64,000 bases of DNA from a virus (IMGVR_UViG_3300010400_000003:1-64000), one strand, 5' to 3'. Shown: positions 3,534 to 31,053, counted from the stretch's first letter. Made by a program: numbers and translations. The notes: generated by a model from the sequence alone, not told the origin.

Positions 3534-4840
3534 GGCGAAGAAACGTAGGCGAGGACCAGCCCGACTTCGGTTGAGGTCTGCGTGCTGGCATCCTGCGAGG
3601 CATCGCCGTCGCGCGCCAGTCGGATCACCCACAACTGGCCTTGCGTGAGCGCCGCGGCCCAGCCGGTCAGCACGGTCCACCCGACGCTTTCGACATCGCC
3701 GCTGGCGCCGGAGGCATCGCCCGCGAAGTCCAGGTTGATCGCCGTTCCGACCGTCCCAGCGGCGGCTGCGGAGTTGGCCACACTGGCACAGGAGAGGACG
3801 TAACGATGCGTGCCCGTGTCGCCCGCGTTGAGCCGGAACTTGAGCCGGGCGTACAGCGGGAAGCTGGCGTTGAAGTCGGGCGGGCCGTCAAAACGGTATT
3901 GGACGTAGTTCGCCGCCTGATCGGCGGAATGTGAGAATGTCGCGTGCCCGAAATCCAGCGCGGTTGTCGTCGATCCCAGCGTGGCCCCCGTGCCGTCCAC
4001 CTGATGCGGGTGCGTCAGATAGATGTAGTTGGTCGAGCCGTAATTCGTCGAGTTCGCCCAAGCCGTGTGCCCCGCCGTGCTCGTCGCCGTGAGGACCTGC
4101 CCGACCGCCGGAGCGTTGGTCGGCATTTTGGTGAACACCGAACGGTCTGAGGTAAACCCGTTCGTGCCGAAGCCGTGGAAGCCGCCATAGCGACTGACCA
4201 AGCCAACCGTTTCGAGAAATAGCGTCGAGTACCCGGTTGGCGGTGCGCCAACGATCATCGAATTGCGGGCGTTGATTGTGACCGAGTTCTTACTGACAAA
4301 CTCCGTCTGCACCAAGCTGTTGAAGGCTTGCACATCAATTCCGTAAGAACCTTCGAGGTAGGCTCCGAGAAACGATCCCTCCGCTGAGTACAATTTGTTT
4401 TGACCGAGTGAACTATTCCCCGTGCTGTAAAGCGATGCTCCCAAAAACGACCCGTCCACCGCGCTGAGGTTGAAGTTCGTTGAGTTCTCTGCAACAGCCG
4501 CGATAACAGACCCGAGATCGGGCTGAATGCCAAAATTATGAGAGCCGTCGAAATAACCGTTGAGCACTGATCCCTCCAGCACTCGGACGGTGAACTGTGT
4601 TGTGCTGTTGAAGCTGCCGATGAGCATGGACCCGTCGGTAACTGAGAAAATCCCATCCACGTCCGCCGCGTTGAATTCTCCAGCAAAGATTCCGTTCGTC
4701 GGGCTGAAGGCCATGCGGGCGGGGCGCGTGGCAAACAGGACGCCGTTGGTGCCCCTGGCGGACACACCTTGGCTGGGAGCGTCTGCGCCCATTGCCGATA
4801 GCCAAAACGACAGTATTGCCAGACAGAGTAGTTTTTTCAT
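3530..4840 (-). CDS. Secreted fibre/spike-like protein, 436 aa
   Basis: The start MKKLLCLAIL at 4840 overlaps the upstream stop (ATGA) and begins a signal peptide ending near residue 19. Residues 50-180 contain repeated units of the form GS(F/V/M)L-x-G-x-(F/L), spaced about 30 residues apart, as expected for a beta-solenoid shaft. The C-terminal half is Ser/Thr/Gly/Ala-rich with aromatic-poor beta segments. It resembles a tail fibre or spike in composition, but a cleavable signal is unusual for one. It is coupled to the P-domain and vWA genes downstream. Confidence 0.6.
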   Translation of the reverse strand: MKKLLCLAILSFWLSAMGADAPSQGVSARGTNGVLFATRPARMAFSPTNGIFAGEFNAADVDGIFSVTDGSMLIGSFNSTTQFTVRVLEGSVLNGYFDGSHNFGIQPDLGSVIAAVAENSTNFNLSAVDGSFLGASLYSTGNSSLGQNKLYSAEGSFLGAYLEGSYGIDVQAFNSLVQTEFVSKNSVTINARNSMIVGAPPTGYSTLFLETVGLVSRYGGFHGFGTNGFTSDRSVFTKMPTNAPAVGQVLTATSTAGHTAWANSTNYGSTNYIYLTHPHQVDGTGATLGSTTTALDFGHATFSHSADQAANYVQYRFDGPPDFNASFPLYARLKFRLNAGDTGTHRYVLSCASVANSAAAAGTVGTAINLDFAGDASGASGDVESVGWTVLTGWAAALTQGQLWVIRLARDGDASQDASTQTSTEVGLVLAYVSSP

Positions 4841-5175
4841 ACGTATTGCAGCCATCCGGTGTTTCCGCTGCCGGACTCCTTAACCCAAATTTTCTTGAGC
4901 AGCGTGTTGACGTATCCCGTGCCAGCGACGGCGGTGACGACGCCCTCGGGATCAACGACGCCAAGCTGGAACAATCCCCCGCCGCCGAGATCGAGCACGG
5001 TGTTGAGGAAGTCCACCAAGTCTTGCAGCGTCACCTTGACGTTGGCCAGTTCGGGATGCGCTGAAATCTGCGAGTCGTCCACCATCTCGAACAGGTCCTC
5101 AAGCGCCAGCGGTCCCGCCTCTGGAAGCTCGGTGATCTTCTTCTTTCGTATTCGTACTGGAGTGCAACAACCCAT
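4837..5175 (-). CDS. Fibre-associated small protein, 112 aa
   Basis: The C-terminus contains GTGYVNTLLKKIWVKESGSG followed by NTGW. This pattern is common at fibre-proximal or trimerisation segments of phage tail fibres. The N-terminus has a basic RIRKKK patch, then an acidic helix-rich segment. It lies directly upstream of the fibre-like protein (ATGA overlap at 4837-4840) and downstream of the connector. The plus-arm protein at 34023 has an analogous ending (SYVNRLTGQIFWWYSSQW) and also lies directly upstream of a signal-bearing fibre. It is probably an adaptor for the fibre. Confidence 0.55.
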   Translation of the reverse strand: MGCCTPVRIRKKKITELPEAGPLALEDLFEMVDDSQISAHPELANVKVTLQDLVDFLNTVLDLGGGGLFQLGVVDPEGVVTAVAGTGYVNTLLKKIWVKESGSGNTGWLQYV

Positions 5176-5176
5176 A

Positions 5177-6013
5177 TCAAGTGGCCTCCAACGCCCGGAA
5201 GATTCCGTTTTCCAGCGCCCGCAGCGTCTCGTCGGTGATCGTACACCAGCAGGGCCGGCGGCATGATTCGCTGGGTCGCACGCGCGTTTGCTCCTGGCAT
5301 TCGAGCATCAGGTCCGCCAGCGCCTCGTCGTAAGTGCCGGTCTTTTGATGGTTGTGAATCGTGTTCGCAACCTGGATGTCGCCGTAGTCCCGCTCGTGCC
5401 CGTATTGCAGGTAGAGCTTCACGGCCTTGCGGAAGTCAATCGCGTCGGAAACCGGGTCGTCGTCGGTCCACTGCGAGGCCAGCTTGTTGCCCGCCCACTC
5501 AATGACCAGTAGTTCGGTGGATTGCATCCAAGGTGCAATCAGGATGTTCTCGCCGTCAATGCAGTAGAGGCCGTCTTGCGCGCGACCGCACGCGGCGTCC
5601 GTGCTGGCGCCGGCCCGGCGGAAGCCCAGCGGCATGACCGGCACGGAGGCGTCGTCAGACTCAGGCGCGGGCTGAAGGTTGGCCGCGAAGCACTCGAACT
5701 CCTTGCGGCCGACTTGGCGGTAGAACACTGGCGAACACCACTCCCGCTCGCTGGTGTCCTCGTCAATCTCAACCGTGTAGAGGAAGCGCACGACGCCGCG
5801 AGGCCGCGGCACGATGGTAGTCCCGCACTTGAACCACGTATTGCAAAAGCGGATGACGTTGGCGTTGCGCGACTTCTCGCACGGGACGAACTTCTGGATG
5901 TCGGACAGGGCTTCGAGGACGATCTGGTCGTGGGCCGAAACCAAGTTCTCGCTTTCTGCGTCCGCCCAAATTTGCCGGCGGATGGAAGTTCTAAGTTGTG
6001 ACAAGGTTTGCAT
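5177..6013 (-). CDS. Head-tail connector / tail tubular A-like protein
   Basis: The product starts MQTLSQLRTSIRRQIWADAE, followed by helices with VLEALSDIQKFV. This is the usual opening of phage adaptor or tail tubular proteins that bind below the portal. The C-terminal part holds AVKLYLQYGHERDYGD, then a helical tail with LADLMLECQEQ. Length (278 aa) fits that group. It is a virion structural gene placed in the minus arm, far from portal and capsid at 40-47 kb. The HNH gene just upstream overlaps its first 23 bases and shares its first residues, so its 5' end was remodelled by that insertion. Confidence 0.55.
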   Translation of the reverse strand: MQTLSQLRTSIRRQIWADAESENLVSAHDQIVLEALSDIQKFVPCEKSRNANVIRFCNTWFKCGTTIVPRPRGVVRFLYTVEIDEDTSEREWCSPVFYRQVGRKEFECFAANLQPAPESDDASVPVMPLGFRRAGASTDAACGRAQDGLYCIDGENILIAPWMQSTELLVIEWAGNKLASQWTDDDPVSDAIDFRKAVKLYLQYGHERDYGDIQVANTIHNHQKTGTYDEALADLMLECQEQTRVRPSESCRRPCWCTITDETLRALENGIFRALEAT

Positions 6014-7514: not shown

Positions 7515-8207
7515 TCAGCCGTCCGCCGCCAGTCCCCACTTCTTGCGCAGATACGCCGTCGGATTGAAGTCGGTTGCCGGTCCTTGCGGCGCGTGTTTCC
7601 GCACCGCTTCAATCAGATGGTCGCAGCGGGCGTTCAGGCAGATGCCGGCCTTTAGATGGTTGCGCTCTAAGAAGTAGAACAGGTCCGCGTCAATCTCCCA
7701 CAGGTCAAACGCCTCGTCCCACATCCAGCCGTCGCGTCGCCGAAAGACGTTAACGCCGGCGGACGGGTTGCCCGTGTGGATGATGCGGCGCTCGTTCACG
7801 ATCCGGTGCTGGACGCACGGCATGTTCAGGTCGTCGAAGCTCCAGTTGCAGAGCGTGAAGTAATCCGGGTTCTCCCGCCAAAGATCCACGATGTTCTCCA
7901 GCCAGTTCGGAAAGTAGATCACGTCCGATGTGCCGTGGGCGATGAACTCGCCGGTCGTCGTGCGCGTGCCGTCGTTGAAAATCTTCGAGATGCTGAATGG
8001 GCCGTCCCACATTCGGACGCCGATGCCGAGCATCTCGCATTGGTTGCGGAGGCGGTCCAGCCGAACGCTGGGCGGGCTGTTGTTGATGTAGGCCCACACG
8101 CGCGCAGTCGTGGACGCCTGGCAGGTCCGCAACGCCATCACCGCCATGTGATAGGTTTCCTCGGTGGCGGTTGTTACCGGAATTATTACGTCGGCGTCGA
8201 GGCTCAT
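7515..8207 (-). CDS. Glycosyltransferase-like protein (GT-A fold)
   Basis: The 230-residue product opens MSLDADVIIPVTTATEETYH, the first strand and loop of GT-A family 2-like transferases. A central TSDVIYFPNWLENIV segment corresponds to the acceptor-side region and IDADLFYFLERNH resembles the later catalytic helix. A strict DxD motif is not obvious. It overlaps the upstream Cys-rich gene by 4 bases and belongs to a sugar-modification block with the genes at 8473, 9381 and 12658. It probably adds a sugar to phage DNA, virion protein or host glycan. Confidence 0.65.
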   Translation of the reverse strand: MSLDADVIIPVTTATEETYHMAVMALRTCQASTTARVWAYINNSPPSVRLDRLRNQCEMLGIGVRMWDGPFSISKIFNDGTRTTTGEFIAHGTSDVIYFPNWLENIVDLWRENPDYFTLCNWSFDDLNMPCVQHRIVNERRIIHTGNPSAGVNVFRRRDGWMWDEAFDLWEIDADLFYFLERNHLKAGICLNARCDHLIEAVRKHAPQGPATDFNPTAYLRKKWGLAADG

Positions 8208-8476
8208 GTGTTGGATATTCTGGCGAGCACCTCCCTGAAGTAACTCTCCTGTTGCTCGGTCGGATTTTCTTGCAACTTTTTCAACAAGAAAATCATTTCG
8301 TTTTGCCTTACTTTTTCACAGTCAAGCCCGAGCCACTTCGCGCCCTCCCTGCATGAAAAGCACAATCCGCCTTCGTACACCAAAACCACTCTATGGCAAC
8401 AGCAGGAGCAGATTGGGTAGGCGCTGCCATTGCCATCATGCACCGGAGGCACAACGTATTGCAGCGTCGTGCTCAT
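8204..8476 (-). CDS. Small Cys-rich (zinc ribbon-like) protein, 90 aa
   Basis: The start MSTTLQYVVPP at 8476 overlaps the stop of the upstream transferase (ATGA). The product contains CSCCCHR and, 12 residues later, CFSCREG, a probable zinc ribbon. A C-terminal helical segment with KKLQENPTEQQESYFREVLA follows; it may be a coiled coil or protein-binding helix. Function unknown. Confidence 0.6.
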   Translation of the reverse strand: MSTTLQYVVPPVHDGNGSAYPICSCCCHRVVLVYEGGLCFSCREGAKWLGLDCEKVRQNEMIFLLKKLQENPTEQQESYFREVLARISNT

Positions 8477-9384
8477 GGGATTTTGTCGAAGTCCTGTATT
8501 TTCATCCCGTCGAACCAATCCCTTTCAGGATGGCCGTTGTGACGCGGGAAAGGTCCACCCCGAAGAACCGCCGCCCGAATGGCGCGCAGATCCCAATGAT
8601 GCTCCGTGCGCTTGCGGACGCCGAACCTCGCCAGCGCCCCGTGCCCCTTGTCCTCCGCGTCGTTCGGCCATCGCTCCTTGCTGGAACGCCGCATGGCTGG
8701 CCCGCATTTCCCGGGAGTGCGGTCCTCGATCAGCTTCAGCCGTGGATCGTACTTGAGTGGAAATCCGTTGTTCTTGAGCATCAGGCCGAAAATGCAATCC
8801 TCCATCGAAAGGCTGTCCATCAGTTCCTCGTAGCCGTTTACCTGAAGCGCCCATTCGAGCGGCAGGGCGTTGACGCATCCGAACCACCAAGAGCCGGGCG
8901 CGTCAGCCAACGCCGACGACACGAGCGCGCGGTGATCGCGGCCTTGCGGAGAACGCGGGTCGCTACCGTCCAGCGTGCCCGGATCGGCTATGATGCCGCT
9001 CTCGACAACCATGCCGTGCCGCTTCTCGTAGCTGCCGCACACACCGTAGCCGCCGGCCATTGCGTCCTCGACGGCTGCGCGCCAGCCAGGAAGCAGGACG
9101 CCGCGATCGTCACAGAACATCACCCATTCAGTGCGGCAAAGGCAAATGCCGGTGTTCGCCGCGTTGCTCTTGGCCCACCACTGGTCTTTGGTCAGGCGGT
9201 GAGGACCCTGCCAGACTGTTGGTTTCGGCGGATGGAAAGTTGCGGCGTGCCAGCCTGCGTAATTCTCTAGGCCGAGACCGATGACGATAATCGGGCAATC
9301 ACTCTCACGCCGAACGCTGTCGTATAGCCACTGGAACTCCGGCTCGTGGCGGGCGGTCGTGAACACTATGGAGAACGCGCTCAT
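8473..9384 (-). CDS. Glycosyltransferase family 2-like protein
   Basis: The start MSAFSIVFTTARHEPEFQWL at 9384 overlaps the upstream methyltransferase stop. Family features are an N-terminal SIVFTTARHEP strand-loop, WVMFCDDRGVLLPGW with the metal- and donor-binding acidic pair, and a later WWFGCVNALPLEWALQVNGYEE followed by MEDCIFGLML, which resembles the acceptor-side block of galactosyltransferase-type enzymes. Length is 303 aa. It forms an overlapping set with the genes at 7515 and 9381. Substrate unknown. Confidence 0.75.
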   Translation of the reverse strand: MSAFSIVFTTARHEPEFQWLYDSVRRESDCPIIVIGLGLENYAGWHAATFHPPKPTVWQGPHRLTKDQWWAKSNAANTGICLCRTEWVMFCDDRGVLLPGWRAAVEDAMAGGYGVCGSYEKRHGMVVESGIIADPGTLDGSDPRSPQGRDHRALVSSALADAPGSWWFGCVNALPLEWALQVNGYEELMDSLSMEDCIFGLMLKNNGFPLKYDPRLKLIEDRTPGKCGPAMRRSSKERWPNDAEDKGHGALARFGVRKRTEHHWDLRAIRAAVLRGGPFPRHNGHPERDWFDGMKIQDFDKIP

Positions 9385-10004
9385 TTCAGCTTTTGGAACA
9401 CCGCCCAATCGTCTCGCTCGGCTCCAGATGACTTCACGACTCGAAACAACTCCGTGCATCCTGCCGCAAGCAGTGTGTCCACCGATTTCGTCACTTCGCC
9501 GCCGTCCCAATGAAGGTCATCGAGCACGATGAACCCGCCGTCGCGGACGTTCGGCGCGAACCTCTGAACGTCACGCATCGCCTGCGCTCCATGATTTCCG
9601 TCTACGTGCAAGAGTCCTATTGTTGCTGGCGGCGTCACGTCATCCGACCGCTTGCGAATCAATCGTGTCACGTTCTGCAACGCCATGCGGTTCACTTGGT
9701 CAAGGAAGTAGTCGTGCATCCTTTTGTGATTCTCGGCGGACCCCCACCACGCCACGTTTGCCGGCCCCTGCCCCTCGATGGACGCCGCCGGCTCATATGG
9801 GTCAATCCCGATCACCATGCCGTGCCCGATCTCCCGGCAGGCCAGCGCCATCGGCAGGAGGCTCTTGCCGGACCAGACTCCGATTTCGACGATAATGTCC
9901 GGGCGCGTGCCGATCACTAGCGAGGCGAGCGTCTTGGCCTTGGCCTCAGTACACCATCCGTGCGGCGAGGCGCACACTTCGGCGATTTGGTCGTAGAGGT
10001 TCAT
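9381..10004 (-). CDS. Class I SAM-dependent methyltransferase (Methyltransf_24-like)
   Basis: The start MNLYDQIAEVCASPHGWC at 10004 overlaps the integrase stop (ATGA at 10001-10004). The SAM-binding motif is VEIGVWSGKSLLPMALA (about residues 37-53), followed by GIDPYEP, LLHVDGNHG and GGFIVLDDLHW. This order is seen in sugar or small-molecule O-methyltransferases near glycosyltransferases. Length is 207 aa. In this context it probably methylates a sugar added by the adjacent glycosyltransferases. Confidence 0.78.
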   Translation of the reverse strand: MNLYDQIAEVCASPHGWCTEAKAKTLASLVIGTRPDIIVEIGVWSGKSLLPMALACREIGHGMVIGIDPYEPAASIEGQGPANVAWWGSAENHKRMHDYFLDQVNRMALQNVTRLIRKRSDDVTPPATIGLLHVDGNHGAQAMRDVQRFAPNVRDGGFIVLDDLHWDGGEVTKSVDTLLAAGCTELFRVVKSSGAERDDWAVFQKLK

Positions 10005-10951
10005 GCGTCGAGCGGGCTTTTGACGGACATCGCTTCCGCGTGGCAATAGCCGATGGTGGTTTCGATTTGCTTGTGCCCCATCGCCTCCTGCAATGCCTTG
10101 AGGTTTGTCCCTCGGTCCAAGCAATGCGTGGCGTAGGCGTGCCGCAATTCATGGGGCAGCACCATGATGCCGAGCTTGCGGCGCGCTTCCTTGACGCCCT
10201 GCTGCACATTCGCTTCGTGCATCCGGTAGCGCACGATCTCACCCGTGCGCGGATGTTTGCAGGGATACCGTTGCGGGAAGAGCCAGGCCCAGGGCCAGGC
10301 GAAACGATACTCGGGATACTTCTTCGCCAGTTGTCCGGGAATCTCCAAAGGGAGGCGCGCCACGACATCGCGCTGCCACACGGCCCGCGCGTAATCCGTC
10401 TGCGCTTGAATTTCCTCCGTCAGTGAACACGGCAAGGCTACCACGCGATCCTTGCCGCCCTTCGCGCCTTTGAGCATCACGCGACCATTCGTCAAGTCCA
10501 CATCCTTGATGCGCAGATTCAATGGCTCGCTCACACGCAAACCGCAACCGTAAAGCAGGCGCACAATCAGGTTGACCGGATAACCTCCCACGTCGCGCAC
10601 GGCGGCGATCAGGCGGCGCGTTTCGTCCACGGTGGGCGCGTGGCGAAGCTGGATCGGGCGGCTCTCCCGTAACGCCTGGACGTTCTTCAACTCGACTCCG
10701 AGCACGTCTTTGTAGAAGAACAGGATGGCATTGAACGCCTGATTCTGTGTGCTGGCCGAGACGTTTTGATTTAGCGAGAGTTCAGTGAGAAACCGTTCCA
10801 ACTTCTGTTCACTGGTTAACTCCGTCGGTAGATGCTTCAGGGCGCGGATGTAGCGGGCAAGCCAGTGCAAATAGGTTTGCTCCGTAGCAATGGCCTTGTG
10901 TTGGCGGCGGATAACGGCGCGAGTGCGCTCAATGGCTTCAATGGGGTTCAT
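10001..10951 (-). CDS. intI: Integron-type tyrosine recombinase (IntI-like)
   Basis: This 316-residue tyrosine recombinase has an N-terminal SAM-like core-binding domain (about 1-95). The catalytic residues are R139 (GCGLRVSE), a Lys in AKGGKDRV, H267 and R270 (PHELRHAYATH), H293 (MGHKQIET) and Y302. Between patches II and III it carries the extra segment that separates IntI from XerC/D and phage integrases: LPLEIPGQLAKKYPEY, WPWAWLFPQ and HPRTGEIVRYRMHE (about 200-245). It adjoins five attC-bounded cassettes immediately upstream and lies in their orientation. It should excise and insert cassettes at folded attC sites. Length is close to IntI1 (337 aa). Confidence 0.92.
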   Translation of the reverse strand: MNPIEAIERTRAVIRRQHKAIATEQTYLHWLARYIRALKHLPTELTSEQKLERFLTELSLNQNVSASTQNQAFNAILFFYKDVLGVELKNVQALRESRPIQLRHAPTVDETRRLIAAVRDVGGYPVNLIVRLLYGCGLRVSEPLNLRIKDVDLTNGRVMLKGAKGGKDRVVALPCSLTEEIQAQTDYARAVWQRDVVARLPLEIPGQLAKKYPEYRFAWPWAWLFPQRYPCKHPRTGEIVRYRMHEANVQQGVKEARRKLGIMVLPHELRHAYATHCLDRGTNLKALQEAMGHKQIETTIGYCHAEAMSVKSPLDA

Positions 10952-10977
10952 GCCGTCAATATACGAAAGGCCATAGC

Positions 10978-11208
10978 TTAATCAATGTTCGACAAAAGCG
11001 CCTTCGCACGTTTCATCATGTCCCGATGTTTTCCGGTTGGCGGCTCATCCACAGCCATTTCGTATTTCTCCATCGCGGCCACCATTTCAGAACACAGCGC
11101 CTCAAGCGCGTCGTGTCGCTTCACCTTCCGATGCCACTCGCGGTAGAGTTTGCCACTCAGCCGAGCACCCGATCCCGGTTTTGCGATGTTGTCAAAGTTG
11201 TTGCTCAT
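10978..11208 (-). CDS. Integron cassette 5 protein, 76 aa
   Basis: The start MSNNFDNIAKPGSG (11208) lies 12 bases inside the cassette start. A longer frame from 11382 would run antisense-like through cassette 4 and is rejected. The product is Lys/Arg-rich and mainly helical (KLYREWHRKVKRHDALEALC, later HRDMMKRAKALL), with no known domain. The ORF ends past the cassette's terminal RYYYAAC-type box (GTCGAAC), 27 bases before the intI ATG. Function unknown. Confidence 0.6.
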   Translation of the reverse strand: MSNNFDNIAKPGSGARLSGKLYREWHRKVKRHDALEALCSEMVAAMEKYEMAVDEPPTGKHRDMMKRAKALLSNID

Positions 11209-11213
11209 AATTT

Positions 11214-11303
11214 GTCGAACCATGCGCTTCAGCGAACGGCGCATGAGTGTTTCAGTTTGCAGGCGGCGTCTCTGGTGCGCCGTCTCTGAGCTTGGTGTTC
11301 GGA
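11214..11303 (-). repeat. attC site between cassettes 4 and 5
   Basis: Read on the minus strand: box TCCGAAC (RC of 11297-11303), stem arm GCTCAGAGACGGCGC (RC of 11277-11291), loop, stem arm GCGCCGTTCGCTGAAGC (RC of 11226-11242), then box GTTCGAC (RC of 11214-11220). The arms pair with one mismatch and two unpaired bases, the extrahelical-base pattern of attC sites. Span 90 bp. Confidence 0.8.
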
Positions 11304-11608
11304 GACTCGGCTTGCATGATGACTCGCGCAAAAGTGCGCAGGTTGAATTCCACCGTTTCTTGTGTCGTCCATAGGCGGTCATCAGCAGCCCATTCTTTCA
11401 CAGCCTTTTCCTGTGCAGCGTTTAGGACTATCGGGACTGCCCTGATTGAGCCGTCTGGCTGGAGTGCGATTGTAAGCGGTTCGCCGCTCGCCAGCATTCG
11501 TTCCAGTTCTTCGATGGTAGGTCTTGGTCTTTCGACCGTCTCCGAACCAGTCGCTGGAGCGAATCCGGCGGGGCGCTTTGATTGTTCAGAGTCAGTTTCC
11601 ATATTCAT
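11252..11608 (-). CDS. Integron cassette 4 protein, 118 aa
   Basis: The ATG at 11608 overlaps the stop of the cassette 3 ORF and lies within the preceding attC, so the first 20 or so residues (through KRPAGFAPATGSE) are attC-encoded. The body has TIEELERMLASGEPLTIALQ, then a strand-rich QPDGSIRAVPIVL and a helical NAAQEKAVKEWA. The acidic, amphipathic start is typical of small phage proteins. No known domain. The last residues (SPNTKLRDGAPETPPAN) are encoded by the next attC. Confidence 0.65.
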   Translation of the reverse strand: MNMETDSEQSKRPAGFAPATGSETVERPRPTIEELERMLASGEPLTIALQPDGSIRAVPIVLNAAQEKAVKEWAADDRLWTTQETVEFNLRTFARVIMQAESPNTKLRDGAPETPPAN

Positions 11609-11653
11609 GTCTTTCGTTGTTCGCCGCCGGATTCGCTCAGCTTATCGTTAGGT
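11541..11653 (-). repeat. attC site between cassettes 3 and 4
   Basis: Minus-strand order: box ACCTAAC (RC of 11647-11653), arm GCTGAGCGAATCCGGCGG (RC of 11624-11641), loop, complementary arm (11553-11571 on plus, GCTGGAGCGAATCCGGCGG), box GTTCGGA (RC of 11541-11547). The arms match perfectly over 18 bp except for one extra G, a textbook extrahelical base. Span 113 bp. This is the clearest attC in the array. Confidence 0.88.
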
Positions 11654-11973
11654 GCTTTCGGTGCAGGTATCTCTTTCCACCCTTCTCCTGTCGGGCAGTC
11701 TTTCGTCTCGCAATACCAGCTTCCGCCACGACCGTTGCATTGAGGGCACGCAACCCAGTCGCCTGGGTCGTAGAAATTCGGGTCGTCCTCGTAAGCGTCA
11801 TAATATCCGTCCTCGCACCCCAGACCGCCACATTCGCCCCACTCCATTTCGCAGTGGCACACAGCGCATATCATCGCACCATCAGACCCACGATACATCG
11901 CACCTAACAAATCCTTGGAAGCAACAGCCGGGGGCTGGGACTGTTGCTGTGGCGTTTCAATTTTTGAGTCCAT
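11605..11973 (-). CDS. Integron cassette 3 protein, zinc-finger-like
   Basis: The 122-residue product starts MDSKIETPQQQSQPPAVASK inside the preceding attC. The body has paired cysteines: CAVCHCEMEWGECGGLGC, then CPQCNGRGG and YCETKDC. CPQCNGRGG resembles DnaJ-type CXXCXGXG zinc repeats, and acidic YYDAYEDDPNFYDPGD separates the two Cys groups. It probably binds zinc and protein or nucleic acid; function unknown. Its stop overlaps the cassette 4 start. Confidence 0.68.
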   Translation of the reverse strand: MDSKIETPQQQSQPPAVASKDLLGAMYRGSDGAMICAVCHCEMEWGECGGLGCEDGYYDAYEDDPNFYDPGDWVACPQCNGRGGSWYCETKDCPTGEGWKEIPAPKAPNDKLSESGGEQRKT

Positions 11974-12009
11974 AATTATTCGCGGCTGTGCTTCAAGTCA
12001 GTGTTAGGT
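11902..12009 (-). repeat. attC site between cassettes 2 and 3
   Basis: Minus-strand order: box ACCTAAC (RC of 12003-12009), arm CTTGAAGCACAGCCG (RC of 11983-11997), loop, arm CCGGCTGTTGCTTCCAAG (RC of 11914-11931), box GTTAGGT (RC of 11902-11908). The arms pair along their length with two single unpaired bases, one after CTTG and one after AAGCA. Span 108 bp. Confidence 0.85.
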
Positions 12010-12314
12010 GAGCCTAGCGGCAGCACTCCTTCTTCGGGGTATTCATCGAAGTAGGCGATGTGCTTGTGAGGCGGCACTTGGCATTTCTGTTCTTCATCCC
12101 AGACGCCTTTCTTCGGCCATGCGGCGATTTTGATTTCCGTCTCGCGCTCCTCGACCTTTTCACTGGCGGTCGGCTCTTGGACTACCAGCCCGCAGAATTG
12201 TGCGAGGTCGCGGATTTCATCTATTGTGAGCGTCAGATGCGGCTCACCTAACCCGTCAGTGGAGCGCGACGTGGCGGGGCTTTCCGGCATAGTTGCTTGA
12301 TCGGCGTCACTCAT
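11976..12314 (-). CDS. Integron cassette 2 protein, 112 aa
   Basis: MSDADQATMPESPATSRSTD is encoded by the preceding attC; the ATG overlaps the cassette 1 stop (ATGA at 12311-12314). The body has a TLTIDEIRDLAQFCGLVV helix and a strand region around EIKIAAWPKKGVWDE, then CQVPPHKHIAYFDEYPEEGV. This resembles small phage proteins with an N-terminal LTxEEIxxLAxFAGL motif of unknown function. The C-terminal PNTDLKHSRE is encoded by the following attC. Confidence 0.66.
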   Translation of the reverse strand: MSDADQATMPESPATSRSTDGLGEPHLTLTIDEIRDLAQFCGLVVQEPTASEKVEERETEIKIAAWPKKGVWDEEQKCQVPPHKHIAYFDEYPEEGVLPLGSPNTDLKHSRE

Positions 12315-12374
12315 TTTATTTCCTTCTGTGAGCCGCAGGCGTCAGCCGCCACGCCGCTCACTTTGGCGTTCGGC
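12246..12374 (-). repeat. attC site between cassettes 1 and 2
   Basis: Minus-strand order: box GCCGAAC (RC of 12368-12374), arm GAGCGGCGTGGCGG (RC of 12346-12359), loop of 68 bases holding the cassette 2 ATG, arm CCGCCACGTCGCGCTC (RC of 12262-12277), box GTTAGGT (RC of 12246-12252). Arms of 14 and 16 bases pair with two unpaired bases. Span 129 bp. Confidence 0.8.
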
Positions 12375-12640
12375 TCTGTCGTCTCCCAGAAGTCCATGTG
12401 GAAGATCAAGCCCGTTGACGTGCCTTTGGTGATTATTTTGACCATTGCTTTGTCGCGCTTTCCAAATCCGATGACGATGCCTTCGGAAGCTCCGGGATTT
12501 GCCCTGCCCCTGCCCTTGTTCATGCCTTGACTGATTGCCAAAGGCGTCACCTTTACACGCATCCCCCATTGGAATTTGTCACGAGCCGAACCATCCGATG
12601 CAGGCGACGTGGCGGGCGCTGGTAGTTTTAAGTCATTCAT
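12311..12640 (-). CDS. Integron cassette 1 protein, 109 aa
   Basis: The ATG at 12640 lies in the attC that precedes the cassette, so LPAPATSPASDG is attC-encoded; an internal MRVKVTPLAIS start (codon 27) is possible. The body, with MRVKVTPLAI, RGRANPGASEGIVIGFGKRD and MVKIITKGTSTG, resembles small KOW/SH3-like phage proteins ending in HMDFWE. Function unknown. The ORF end lies in the next attC. Confidence 0.65.
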   Translation of the reverse strand: MNDLKLPAPATSPASDGSARDKFQWGMRVKVTPLAISQGMNKGRGRANPGASEGIVIGFGKRDKAMVKIITKGTSTGLIFHMDFWETTEPNAKVSGVAADACGSQKEIK

Positions 12641-12691
12641 AAATTCGGAGGCGCGGGTTAATCGGCCACGCGCCTGATCTGGTCGTTAAAA
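12585..12691 (-). repeat. attC site preceding cassette 1, in the 3' end of the GT gene
   Basis: Minus-strand order: box TTTTAAC (RC of 12685-12691, off consensus at its first base), arm CAGGCGCGTGGC (RC of 12665-12676), loop, arm GCCACGTCGCCTG (RC of 12601-12613), box GTTCGGC (RC of 12585-12591). The arms match perfectly apart from one extra T. The first half codes for the end of the glycosyltransferase at 12658, so that gene may itself be a captured cassette. Span 107 bp. Confidence 0.7.
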
Positions 12692-14358
12692 TTCAAATGC
12701 GATTCCGTCACCTTCACCAAACACGCCGCCGTGTCGTTCACCCCGACGGACACCATCCAGCCGTCGTCTTGCGCGACCGCGCCGTAGGGTATCACGACGT
12801 TTGGCTTCCAATGCGCAGCCCCGCTGCGCCACTCGTGGCCGCTCAGAATCGGATGGCTGGAAACGGCCAGCATCTCGAACGGCGGTTCGCTGTTCATCAC
12901 GTACGCCCCCATGTAGTAACGCACGTCGCGCGGCTTGTCGCTGATTGGGATTTGACTATGGAAGAACCGCAGCCACTTCCCGCGATACGGTATCGGAGGC
13001 GTGCCGCCGCGGATTTGTCCCCACGCCCAGGAAAGCGACGGCGTCCGCCATTCCTCATCTGGCTTGCCATCGCGGATCCTCACAACGACATGCTCGGGCG
13101 AACAGGCGTAAATGAAATGCGTGCGGCCTTCCAGGTCGAAGAACACCCAATTCTTTTCGAGCGCACTGCCGTCGTTGTGGCCATATTCAGGCCGGCAGAA
13201 TTCCGCCAGTTCGGCGCCGCTGTCCGAGACTTTGATTTCTCCGTAGGCCATGACGCAGCGGAAACGATTGCCAGCCACGCCCGCCACGACAAACGAGCCG
13301 AACAGGCGATCATCACGGGTCCACAGTCGCATGTCCTCGACGCTGGACGTGCTCAAATCGGACGGCATCCGCAGCGGCAAATGCCTGATGGCGGTCGCCG
13401 TTGCCGGGTCGAGTTGCACAATCGCCAGTTGCGTTTTCCACGAGCCGTGCGGGTGATGGCGGTAGGTGGACCACAGATTGCCGTTCCACTGAATGAGCGA
13501 CGGGTTGTAGCCGTGCGCTTCCAGGCCCATGATGGGACGCTGCGACGGTCGCCGCACGCCGGACAATACCTGCCGGGCCATGTGCAAAATCTCCGGCTTG
13601 CGAGCGCTGTATTGCGAGTACCGGCAATGAAGCTCGAACCGCTTTTGCCAAGGCGTGCCGTTCCACGGCGTTGGCAGGTCGCGGCTCAACGCTATGACCG
13701 GCACTTTCGACGCCGCGCTCAAATGCAGCGGCAGGCTGTCGCCGGCAATCAGCAGTTCCGCGCGGTCCATCAATCGTATCAAGTCGTAAGGCTTTTCCGC
13801 TCTCACTTCAGATAAGTCGAGCGCGCGACACTTTGGCAACGCTTCCTGAACGGCCTGAATCAAATCGTCCTTTTCAGGGAAAGGCGATGCTACGCCGCTG
13901 AGAGCCACGAGGATTATTTGCAAATCCACGTTCAGATGCTTCTCCACTAGCGCAGCCTCGCGCAACACATCCCGCCGGTCAAACTCCAACGGCAACCGCC
14001 GCCAATCGTTTGGCCGTCCGAGGTTGGCCCAAATCTCGTGGACAAAGCTTTCCCCAACCGGCTTGCGCGTGCCGGCGGACTCGACGGGATTCACCCAGCG
14101 AATCATTGAGCCGTTCGACTGCTCTTTGATCCATGACACCGCCCGATGCACTGTGTCGCCATCCTGGCCGCGCTTCCACGTCTCGGGGTAAACGATCGGG
14201 GTGACGTAGCTCACGCCGTCCAAGATGTCCTCGTAGTTCTGCGCGACGACGATGCTCGTCTTTTCGCCGGTCGCCCGAAAGCGGTCCAGCGCGAACGGCA
14301 GGACGATGCACAAATCCCCGTAACTGCCCAAGCAGACGATTTGCTCGCGGTTGCTCAT
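12658..14358 (-). CDS. Two-domain sugar protein: GT9-like plus beta-propeller (GH43/130-like)
   Basis: The start MSNREQIVCLGSYGDLCIVL at 14358 overlaps the upstream stop. Residues 1-280 resemble heptosyltransferase-type GT-B proteins (GSYGDLCIVLPFAL; ELLIAGDSLPLHLSAASKVP, the donor-side motif of family 9). Residues about 285-566 resemble a five-bladed propeller as in GH43/GH130 proteins: PSLIQWNGNLWSTYR, GSALEKNWVFFDLEG, SPEHVVVRI, FHSQIP. The combination suggests transfer and recognition or trimming of a glycan. Its 3' end forms half of an attC site, unlike its operon neighbours. Confidence 0.66.
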   Translation of the reverse strand: MSNREQIVCLGSYGDLCIVLPFALDRFRATGEKTSIVVAQNYEDILDGVSYVTPIVYPETWKRGQDGDTVHRAVSWIKEQSNGSMIRWVNPVESAGTRKPVGESFVHEIWANLGRPNDWRRLPLEFDRRDVLREAALVEKHLNVDLQIILVALSGVASPFPEKDDLIQAVQEALPKCRALDLSEVRAEKPYDLIRLMDRAELLIAGDSLPLHLSAASKVPVIALSRDLPTPWNGTPWQKRFELHCRYSQYSARKPEILHMARQVLSGVRRPSQRPIMGLEAHGYNPSLIQWNGNLWSTYRHHPHGSWKTQLAIVQLDPATATAIRHLPLRMPSDLSTSSVEDMRLWTRDDRLFGSFVVAGVAGNRFRCVMAYGEIKVSDSGAELAEFCRPEYGHNDGSALEKNWVFFDLEGRTHFIYACSPEHVVVRIRDGKPDEEWRTPSLSWAWGQIRGGTPPIPYRGKWLRFFHSQIPISDKPRDVRYYMGAYVMNSEPPFEMLAVSSHPILSGHEWRSGAAHWKPNVVIPYGAVAQDDGWMVSVGVNDTAACLVKVTESHLNFNDQIRRVAD

Positions 14359-14558
14359 TCCTTCACAAGTTTGATGCTCTCCGCGCTCACCCACGCTGCG
14401 CCATCGCCGTGGCTCGGGTGGATGCGAACCTCGTCCCGTCCGTAGCGTTGTTGCACGGCCTCGACAATCACAGGAATCGCAAGCGCGCCGTCGGATCGCA
14501 ATTTGGGCCGCCAAATCGCTTTCCTCCAAACGTATTTTTCCAGTTCAGGCTTGGTCAT
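14355..14558 (-). CDS. Hypothetical protein, 67 aa
   Basis: The small protein MTKPELEKYVWRKAIWRPKL has ATGA-type overlaps at both ends (14355-14358 and 14555-14558). It has a basic N-terminal helix and a C-terminal VRIHPSHGDGAAWVSAESIK segment. No domain recognised. It is transcribed from the palindromic promoter at 14790-14836 together with the RHH-like protein upstream. Confidence 0.62.
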   Translation of the reverse strand: MTKPELEKYVWRKAIWRPKLRSDGALAIPVIVEAVQQRYGRDEVRIHPSHGDGAAWVSAESIKLVKE

Positions 14559-30273: not shown

Positions 30274-31053
30274 TCATTTTCCTTGGGCTTCTTTCCGTCG
30301 GAGCATTTGATCTAACTCTGGATATTTGGTTGCTGGGATTTCTTTGAACGATGCCGCACCAGCGAAGCGCAAAAACGCACCGTGATTTGAATTGGTTTCG
30401 TTGACGCGCCGTTCCAGTTCAAACGCCTGCTCCGCAGAAACCTTTTCGTCGAGGTTTCCTTCGAGCGCGGCATCGCTGTCAATTCCGACGACGACAATGT
30501 TCAGACAGTCGCACAGGGCGCCGCGCTTGGCGTAGGAGTGCGCCGAACCATCCGCCTGTGATTCAGAGCAACCCGGAGGCCCTTGACCGATACGAACCGA
30601 ATACGGATTGCTCCGCTCGTGGCCGCCCTTGTGCATGAGCGTGCAAATCTTCGTGATCTTGCCTTGCTGGAAAGCGCCCTCCGAGAAAGTGTAGGTGAAT
30701 CCGTGTTGATGGCAGAGCGGTTTTGCCTGGGAGTCAATTTCCTCGAACGGCGCAAACGACGAGCGCATTTTGCCGTTCCGGTCGGGAATAACTTTGGTCG
30801 CCTTGATTCTCGGCGTGTCGGCCTGGAGGGCGATGAAGTCCTTGGTGAACTCGCGTTTGGCCTGATCGGCGTCCATGTCGCGCTTGAGCGCCACCAGTTC
30901 GCGAAGCGCGGCGACGTTCTCGCTCGTGACGCCGCGCTCGATCACGGATTGGATCATGTCGAGCGCGCTCGGTTCGCGTTTGGCGACTGCGCTGGATGGC
31001 GGCGACTGCGGCACGAGTTCGGCTTCGATGGGAGTTGAGGTTTCAGGTTTCAT
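30274..31053 (-). CDS. erf: ERF-family single-strand annealing protein
   Basis: Residues 45-160 match the ERF family: AKREFTKDFIALQADTPRIK, KMRSSFAPFEEIDSQAKPLC, HGFTYTFSEGAFQQGKITKI and THPSC-like CTLMHKGGHERSNPYS. A second block is SAHSYAKRGALCDCLNIVVV. ERF proteins bind single-stranded DNA ends and anneal them, here together with the YqaJ-like nuclease. It overlaps the upstream gene by 4 bases. Confidence 0.82.
   Translation of the reverse strand: MKPETSTPIEAELVPQSPPSSAVAKREPSALDMIQSVIERGVTSENVAALRELVALKRDMDADQAKREFTKDFIALQADTPRIKATKVIPDRNGKMRSSFAPFEEIDSQAKPLCHQHGFTYTFSEGAFQQGKITKICTLMHKGGHERSNPYSVRIGQGPPGCSESQADGSAHSYAKRGALCDCLNIVVVGIDSDAALEGNLDEKVSAEQAFELERRVNETNSNHGAFLRFAGAASFKEIPATKYPELDQMLRRKEAQGK

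Follow-up and report, generated by a model that had tools for sequence, protein, structure and literature searches.

Described integrons and the phage locus

Integrons are generally taught as bacterial platforms whose gene cassettes are expressed from a promoter at attI, and in an ordinary integron the gene points the same way as the polarity of its attC, away from attI. Here we analyse a locus in a 64,000-nucleotide stretch of viral DNA (IMGVR_UViG_3300010400_000003:1-64000; hereafter the window), part of a 75,285-bp IMG/VR record, where an integron integrase (IntI) gene lies next to an attI site and five small cassettes. Our reading, to which we give a probability of roughly 0.85, is that the phage owns an integron of canonical recombination geometry in which the gene of every cassette is inverted relative to its attC. 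That geometry would comprise intI, attI next to the 5′ end of that gene, cassettes that are bounded by attC and extend outward, and exchange at G^TT. By the defining features tested on sequence the system is an integron, and it departs from the usual gene direction.

Phage integrons and clusters of attC sites lacking intI (CALINs) have been published (Qi 2023, PMC9892861). An earlier note on this DNA, made from the sequence alone, had called phage-borne integrons rare; this needs correcting in that they were already on record, and about 45 IMG/VR contigs encode IntI relatives. As in the window, phage genomes carry parts of integrons in the published cases; attCs of phages were recombined there by IntI1, and methyltransferase cargo was noted. 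The complete integrons among them, however, were host-derived (Vibrio, Shewanella, class 1) and no inverted-gene cassettes were described. In one TJE1 site from the published phage integrons, the polarity with respect to the genes is canonical. In the ‘reverse integron’ of Treponema denticola (PMC3607928, PMC7691350), as in the window, intI and the cassette genes are transcribed the same way. There, however, the flipped gene is intI itself, which is transcribed toward attI and has the array downstream of it, whereas in the window intI points away from attI in the usual manner and the flip concerns the genes inside the cassettes. Chromosomal integrons of Verrucomicrobiota (L012, L178, L179 and L180) share the attC polarity relative to intI, and L012 also has a close IntI and attI, but their genes point mostly outward, away from attI. 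Coupling through ORF-11 at attI1 of class 1 integrons (PMC8876359) likewise uses a stop near a start at a recombination site to aid the next gene; that attI serves the first cassette only, whereas in the phages most cassettes have a stop-start pair within their attC. Finally, cryoconite phages that are otherwise near-identical vary in their methyltransferase genes, which form variable islands (PMC7468147); five variable genes are annotated as an integron gene cassette, and no integron mechanism was found in the passages on these islands. No description of arrays with genes inverted relative to attC was found in an open-access library, subscription papers and preprints being outside the search.

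An integron integrase, attI and a chain of five cassettes

The predicted IntI scored 275.5 bits against the TIGR02249 profile (cut-off 265) and aligned with VchIntIA (PDB 2a3v; E 2.5e-45) without a break through the IntI-specific insertion (residues 190-245), the segment at which Xer alignments break. The catalytic residues R139, H267, R270, H293 and Y302 are all present and are invariant among nine relatives. The start codon of intI faces attI and its transcription leads away from it. Upstream of intI, 19 phage loci share a consensus attI, TAATCAnTG^TT, and a close version, ATAATCAACG^TT, occupies the equivalent place in the chromosomal Verrucomicrobiota loci L012/L014. Thus IntI with its specific segment, attI beside intI and attC-bounded cassettes are all recognizable on sequence (Table 1). 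A CALIN was ruled out as a description of the locus, since intI is present, and an Rfam search returned no match.

Table 1. Features of the phage integron and its immediate neighbours (window coordinates)
Feature	Position	Strand	Remarks
Downstream phage gene, methyltransferase-like	9381..10004	-	PF13578 E 1.9e-16; same direction as intI and cassettes
intI, integron integrase, 316 aa	10001..10951	-	TIGR02249; last gene of co-directional run; 5′ end faces attI
attI adjoining intI	10952..10993	+	crossover G^TT, G at 10987; core AATCAATG^TT
Cassette 1 unit, attI-proximal; attC 11214-11303	10988..11297	+	boxes 10/10; attC model E 2.1e-6, + strand
Cassette 2 unit; attC 11541-11653	11298..11647	+	boxes 10/10; attC model E 1.1e-6, + strand
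Cassette 3 unit; attC 11902-12009	11648..12003	+	boxes 9/10, stem score 31.5; missed by attC model
Cassette 4 unit; attC 12246-12374	12004..12368	+	boxes 10/10; attC model E 9e-5, + strand
Cassette 5 unit, outermost; attC 12585-12691	12369..12685	+	boxes 9/10; attC model E 1.5e-5, + strand
Open reading frame (ORF) 1, 88 aa from ATG 11244, longer frame to 11382	10978..11244	-	codon score inward +18, outward 0
ORF 2, 118 aa	11252..11608	-	start inside own attC, stop inside cassette 1 attC; codon score undecided
ORF 3, 122 aa, CxxC pairs	11605..11973	-	start inside own attC; codon score inward +7, outward 0
ORF 4, 112 aa	11976..12314	-	start inside own attC; codon score inward +23, outward +9
ORF 5, 109 aa	12311..12640	-	start inside own attC; AAC box in frame; codon score undecided
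Flanking phage gene beyond array, weak Glyco_hydro_130 / GT9-like	12658..14529	-	Pfam below cut-off; co-directional coding

Comparison of box sequences showed that the start of each cassette is complementary to its own end (10, 10, 10, 12 and 9 bases out of 12), while the two boxes of a single attC match less well (7, 6, 9, 5 and 4 out of 12). Starting from the site beside intI, the boxes form a chain of five linked units, with start and end boxes agreeing at 9 or 10 of 10 positions in each. Two or more such links were obtained in 0/1000 dinucleotide shuffles and from 0/2752 other start points in the window. In addition, a covariance model was trained solely on 26 chromosomal attCs from Verrucomicrobiota loci (L178, L179, L181 and L014). 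Its top four matches in the 64-kb window are four of the five array attCs (E-values 1.1e-6, 2.1e-6, 1.5e-5 and 9e-5; next best 0.05), all on the plus strand and therefore outward from intI. These values are quoted from the default run; scores were lower (best E 0.001) when 9.0-14.5 kb was searched without filters, probably due to trimmed loops in the training sites of the model.

Much of what the earlier note had claimed is borne out by these results: a phage-encoded integron with five attC-bounded cassettes (IntI above the profile cut-off, attI and five linked units), an IntI-type integrase with the extra segment and the five catalytic residues, and five small genes of one orientation, which we locate as five same-strand ORFs at 10978-12640. 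Its contrast between cassette starts that are the reverse complement of their own ends and mismatched boxes within one attC agrees with our counts (9-12/12 versus 4-9/12), and the stem that it placed at 11553-11571 and 11624-11641 is real. Two checks that it had proposed were positive, the IntI profile at 275.5 bits and the attC covariance model at 4/5 sites (E 1.1e-6 to 9e-5).

Small genes without known function are common in phages, and an ordinary cluster of them with terminator-like hairpins, beside a tyrosine recombinase by chance, would look similar at first sight. The shuffle and position controls, the attC model matches and the IntI-specific profile refute this explanation, leaving it a negligible probability.

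Cassette exchange in related phages

The phage contigs L115, L116, L117 and L125 are near-identical (98.6-99.97% over kilobases) and their arrays differ; cassette variation between relatives, which the earlier note had put forward as a test, is thus found in related phages. A 313-bp cassette (cassette X) is identical at 313/313 positions in L125 and L116 and is missing from L117, where the join reads ...CCATGCCG|TTCGCCTCC..., exactly at G^TT. Critically, the part of attC lost along with the gene of cassette X is the part holding that gene's start codon, and therefore the exchanged unit consists of attC plus gene in the inverted relation. The L116 contig carries virion, DnaB-like helicase and primosomal genes. 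Read from sequence comparison, G^TT exchange is a demonstrated property of this type of system, not of the window phage in particular.

Close kin of the window phage were sought via the flanking gene and the terminase, yielding only a fragment at 33% identity and a contig of 4.6 kb whose terminase is 88% identical, and a search of viral contigs for relatives of cassettes 3 and 5 of the window found none. The search for close kin, which uncovered no phage with the window backbone and other cassettes, and the one attC missed by the covariance model would suit a real but dead integron, in which a single capture has left small phage genes, now fixed, with hairpin remnants. Against this, IntI is intact with all catalytic residues, the boxes of each cassette still match at 9-10/10, and the related system shows recent exchange; we consider a dead integron unlikely.

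Cassette genes run against the recombination direction

The polarity of attC and the attI-intI layout are canonical in the window, and the genes run toward attI and intI. The earlier note had taken the direction of the ORFs as that of the attCs; attC polarity, the position of attI and the observed breakpoints give the opposite strand. Because of these three lines of evidence, the data show that the direction of recombination is that of the strand opposite to the genes, which are inverted relative to attC and attI. Reading the attCs in the direction of the ORFs was tried and rejected, as it leaves the last cassette without an attC and the first with one too many; the inverted reading was therefore adopted.

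The same polarity is seen in relatives. In 12 viral relatives, 55/58 covariance model matches lie on the strand leading outward from intI. The extra bases that give an attC its polarity fall in the outward 5′ arm in 60 versus 4 sites of the IntI clade to which the window belongs, in 30 versus 3 other viral sites and in 23 versus 2 control sites.

As a criterion for gene direction, the length of the longest ORF left the question undecided; a codon-usage score and protein family matches decided it. The score called 51 cassettes inward and 0 outward in the IntI clade of phages, and 23 inward and 0 outward in other viral lineages; in the window it decided 3/5 ORFs, all inward. Family matches agree: inward ORFs (n=102) matched 21 Pfam and 88 PHROG families, and the outward ORFs of the same cassettes (n=71) matched no Pfam family and one weak PHROG family. 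General bacterial loci make poor controls, most of their contigs stopping at the array, and Verrucomicrobiota contigs were used instead. Among decided cassettes in Verrucomicrobiota genomes, nine distinct cases have outward genes (the tally reads ten because one locus is counted twice), and three loci, each with a single cassette, have inward ones.

One could instead suppose that the cassettes have the ordinary orientation, with attI at the 12.6-kb end and intI moved to the far end, or reversed as in Treponema, where intI and cassettes are likewise transcribed one way. Here, however, a conserved attI-like site adjoins intI and is linked, at 10/10 positions, to the last cassette's own box, the 5′ end of intI rather than its 3′ end faces attI, attC polarity is outward from intI, and breakpoints fall at the outward G^TT. 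We regard a displaced or reversed integrase as very unlikely.

attC as a proposed translational junction

In the direction of the genes, each cassette consists of attC first and then the gene. Among inward ORFs that read through the box, AAC is in frame in 41/42; elsewhere a stop TAA overlaps the box. In the window, AAC is in frame in ORFs 3, 4 and 5, and the stop TAA of ORF 1 comes from attI (AAC ATT GAT TAA). The first ATG lies inside attC in 31/56 clade cassettes and 11/28 other viral cassettes. When attC is entered in the AAC frame, the first stop falls between -10 and +25 nt of the ATG of the attC's own gene in 41/47 sites; in the other two frames this range holds the first stop at 15 and 13 sites. 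At 20 of the 47 attC junctions the stop and start overlap as ATGA, as they do between ORFs 2 and 3 and between ORFs 4 and 5 of the window.

Read in gene direction, an upstream gene thus enters attC in a fixed frame, the box RYYYAAC being read as ...-Asn, and ends within attC at a stop beside or overlapping the start codon of the attC's own gene. These arrangements suggest a mechanism, which we infer from sequence. Such a stop-start junction could act as a built-in coupling module that keeps translation going in any cassette order. Since the array lies within a co-directional block of phage genes, the cassette genes are likely co-transcribed with phage genes toward intI, and an integron promoter would not be needed.

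Cargo and use of the array

Cassettes of relatives encode N6/N4, C5 and Dam-type DNA methyltransferases, Mom, the restriction alleviation protein Lar, as well as PAPS reductase-like, HNH and HTH proteins. Because DNA modification and restriction-alleviation genes are frequent in this cargo, the array is likely used for swapping counter-restriction genes between infections. We lean slightly towards a wider interpretation, in which phages keep a cassette pool of their own, held apart from the bacterial pool by the inversion, with attC serving as a stop/start plug-in junction, so that an exchangeable counter-restriction set can be rearranged within an operon without loss of expression. Several phage lineages share the recombination chemistry of bacterial integrons while their genes point the other way, which makes the cassettes fit a phage operon; in a normal bacterial integron the inverted cassettes would be antisense. 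This would provide a site-specific route for phages to exchange anti-restriction genes, and is one possible source of single-gene accessory differences between near-identical phages. Clear, testable predictions on strand, frame and junction follow.

Relatives of the phage integron

About 20 viral contigs combine a close IntI with the same inverted design. The IntI of the window belongs to a clade that has strong support and comprises 20 viral and 7 Verrucomicrobiota-associated sequences; closest to it are L002 (73%) and L003 (70%), and the nearest non-viral IntI is from Verrucomicrobiota. Inward genes also occur with several viral IntI lineages placed elsewhere in the tree, consistent with a single or a multiple origin of the design. 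In one Verrucomicrobiota order, an IntI match at E 1e-80 occurs in 29/320 genomes, of which about eight have an IntI of the close clade. Because IntI relatives reside in Verrucomicrobiota genomes, a host for the window phage in this phylum is plausible.

This affinity would also fit a bacterial chromosomal integron or prophage remnant that was misassembled or misbinned as a virus. The contig, however, carries a phage gene set (terminase, primase/helicase, tail and virion proteins), with replication, packaging and tail genes and with co-directional genes on both sides of the array, the gene direction is opposite to that of chromosomal relatives, and the close IntI and the design recur in the viral contigs mentioned above. 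An artefact of this kind is in our view highly improbable, slightly more so than a displaced integrase.

Several observations weigh against a phage-owned integron with inverted cassette genes. Every sequence used is metagenomic, and the viral identity of the relatives rests on IMG/VR, with a terminase in 13/25 related viral records. Three loci in metagenome-assembled genomes (MAGs; L013, L140 and L170) each have a single inward cassette, the attI of L140 being of the phage type. Within the window, the codon score leaves 2/5 ORFs undecided, their direction coming from anatomy and relatives, and the covariance model misses 1/5 attCs (11902-12009), a site that rests on the chain and its stem. All five window cassettes are without relatives in the fetched loci, and the five cassette proteins matched no known family in Pfam, TIGR and PHROG profile searches. 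The case of exchange comes from a lineage with an IntI ~37% identical to that of the window, and not from close kin of the window. The first ATG is outside attC in 25/56 clade cassettes, so that a start within attC is common, not universal.

Flanking genes and further observations

Co-directional flanks are usual in related loci, being found beyond the array in 18/20 and beyond intI in 23/25. In the window, a block of glycosyltransferase-like and methyltransferase-like genes lies downstream of intI on the same strand (7515-10004). On the other side, the outer box of the cassette 5 attC is within the flanking gene (12658-14529), which reads this AAC box in frame (SHLNFN...) and at an empty site would terminate at the stop of attI. 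This gene may have been shaped by the integron or be a relic of it. The window also encodes an Erf-like single-strand annealing protein (30274-31053; PHROG E 1.2e-21), and single-stranded DNA formed in phage replication could help attC folding.

Among viral contigs, L120 has two attC model matches on the opposite strand, distant from intI (L120:357-449 and L120:910-1003), which suggests a second attC cluster in opposite orientation. In the deposited record of Virus Rctr41k (KX853513, L184), an IntI-like integrase (4680-5678) ends a run of small co-directional genes; an attC chain was searched for in this record and not detected. The Verrucomicrobiota contig of L013 carries, beside its intact IntI gene and its single inward cassette, a partial second IntI gene (G003:C192:1020-1298). 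L140 (G657:C288) is a 3-kb MAG contig on which the phage-type attI and the inward cassette occur together, and it is probably a phage or prophage fragment that was binned with a bacterium.

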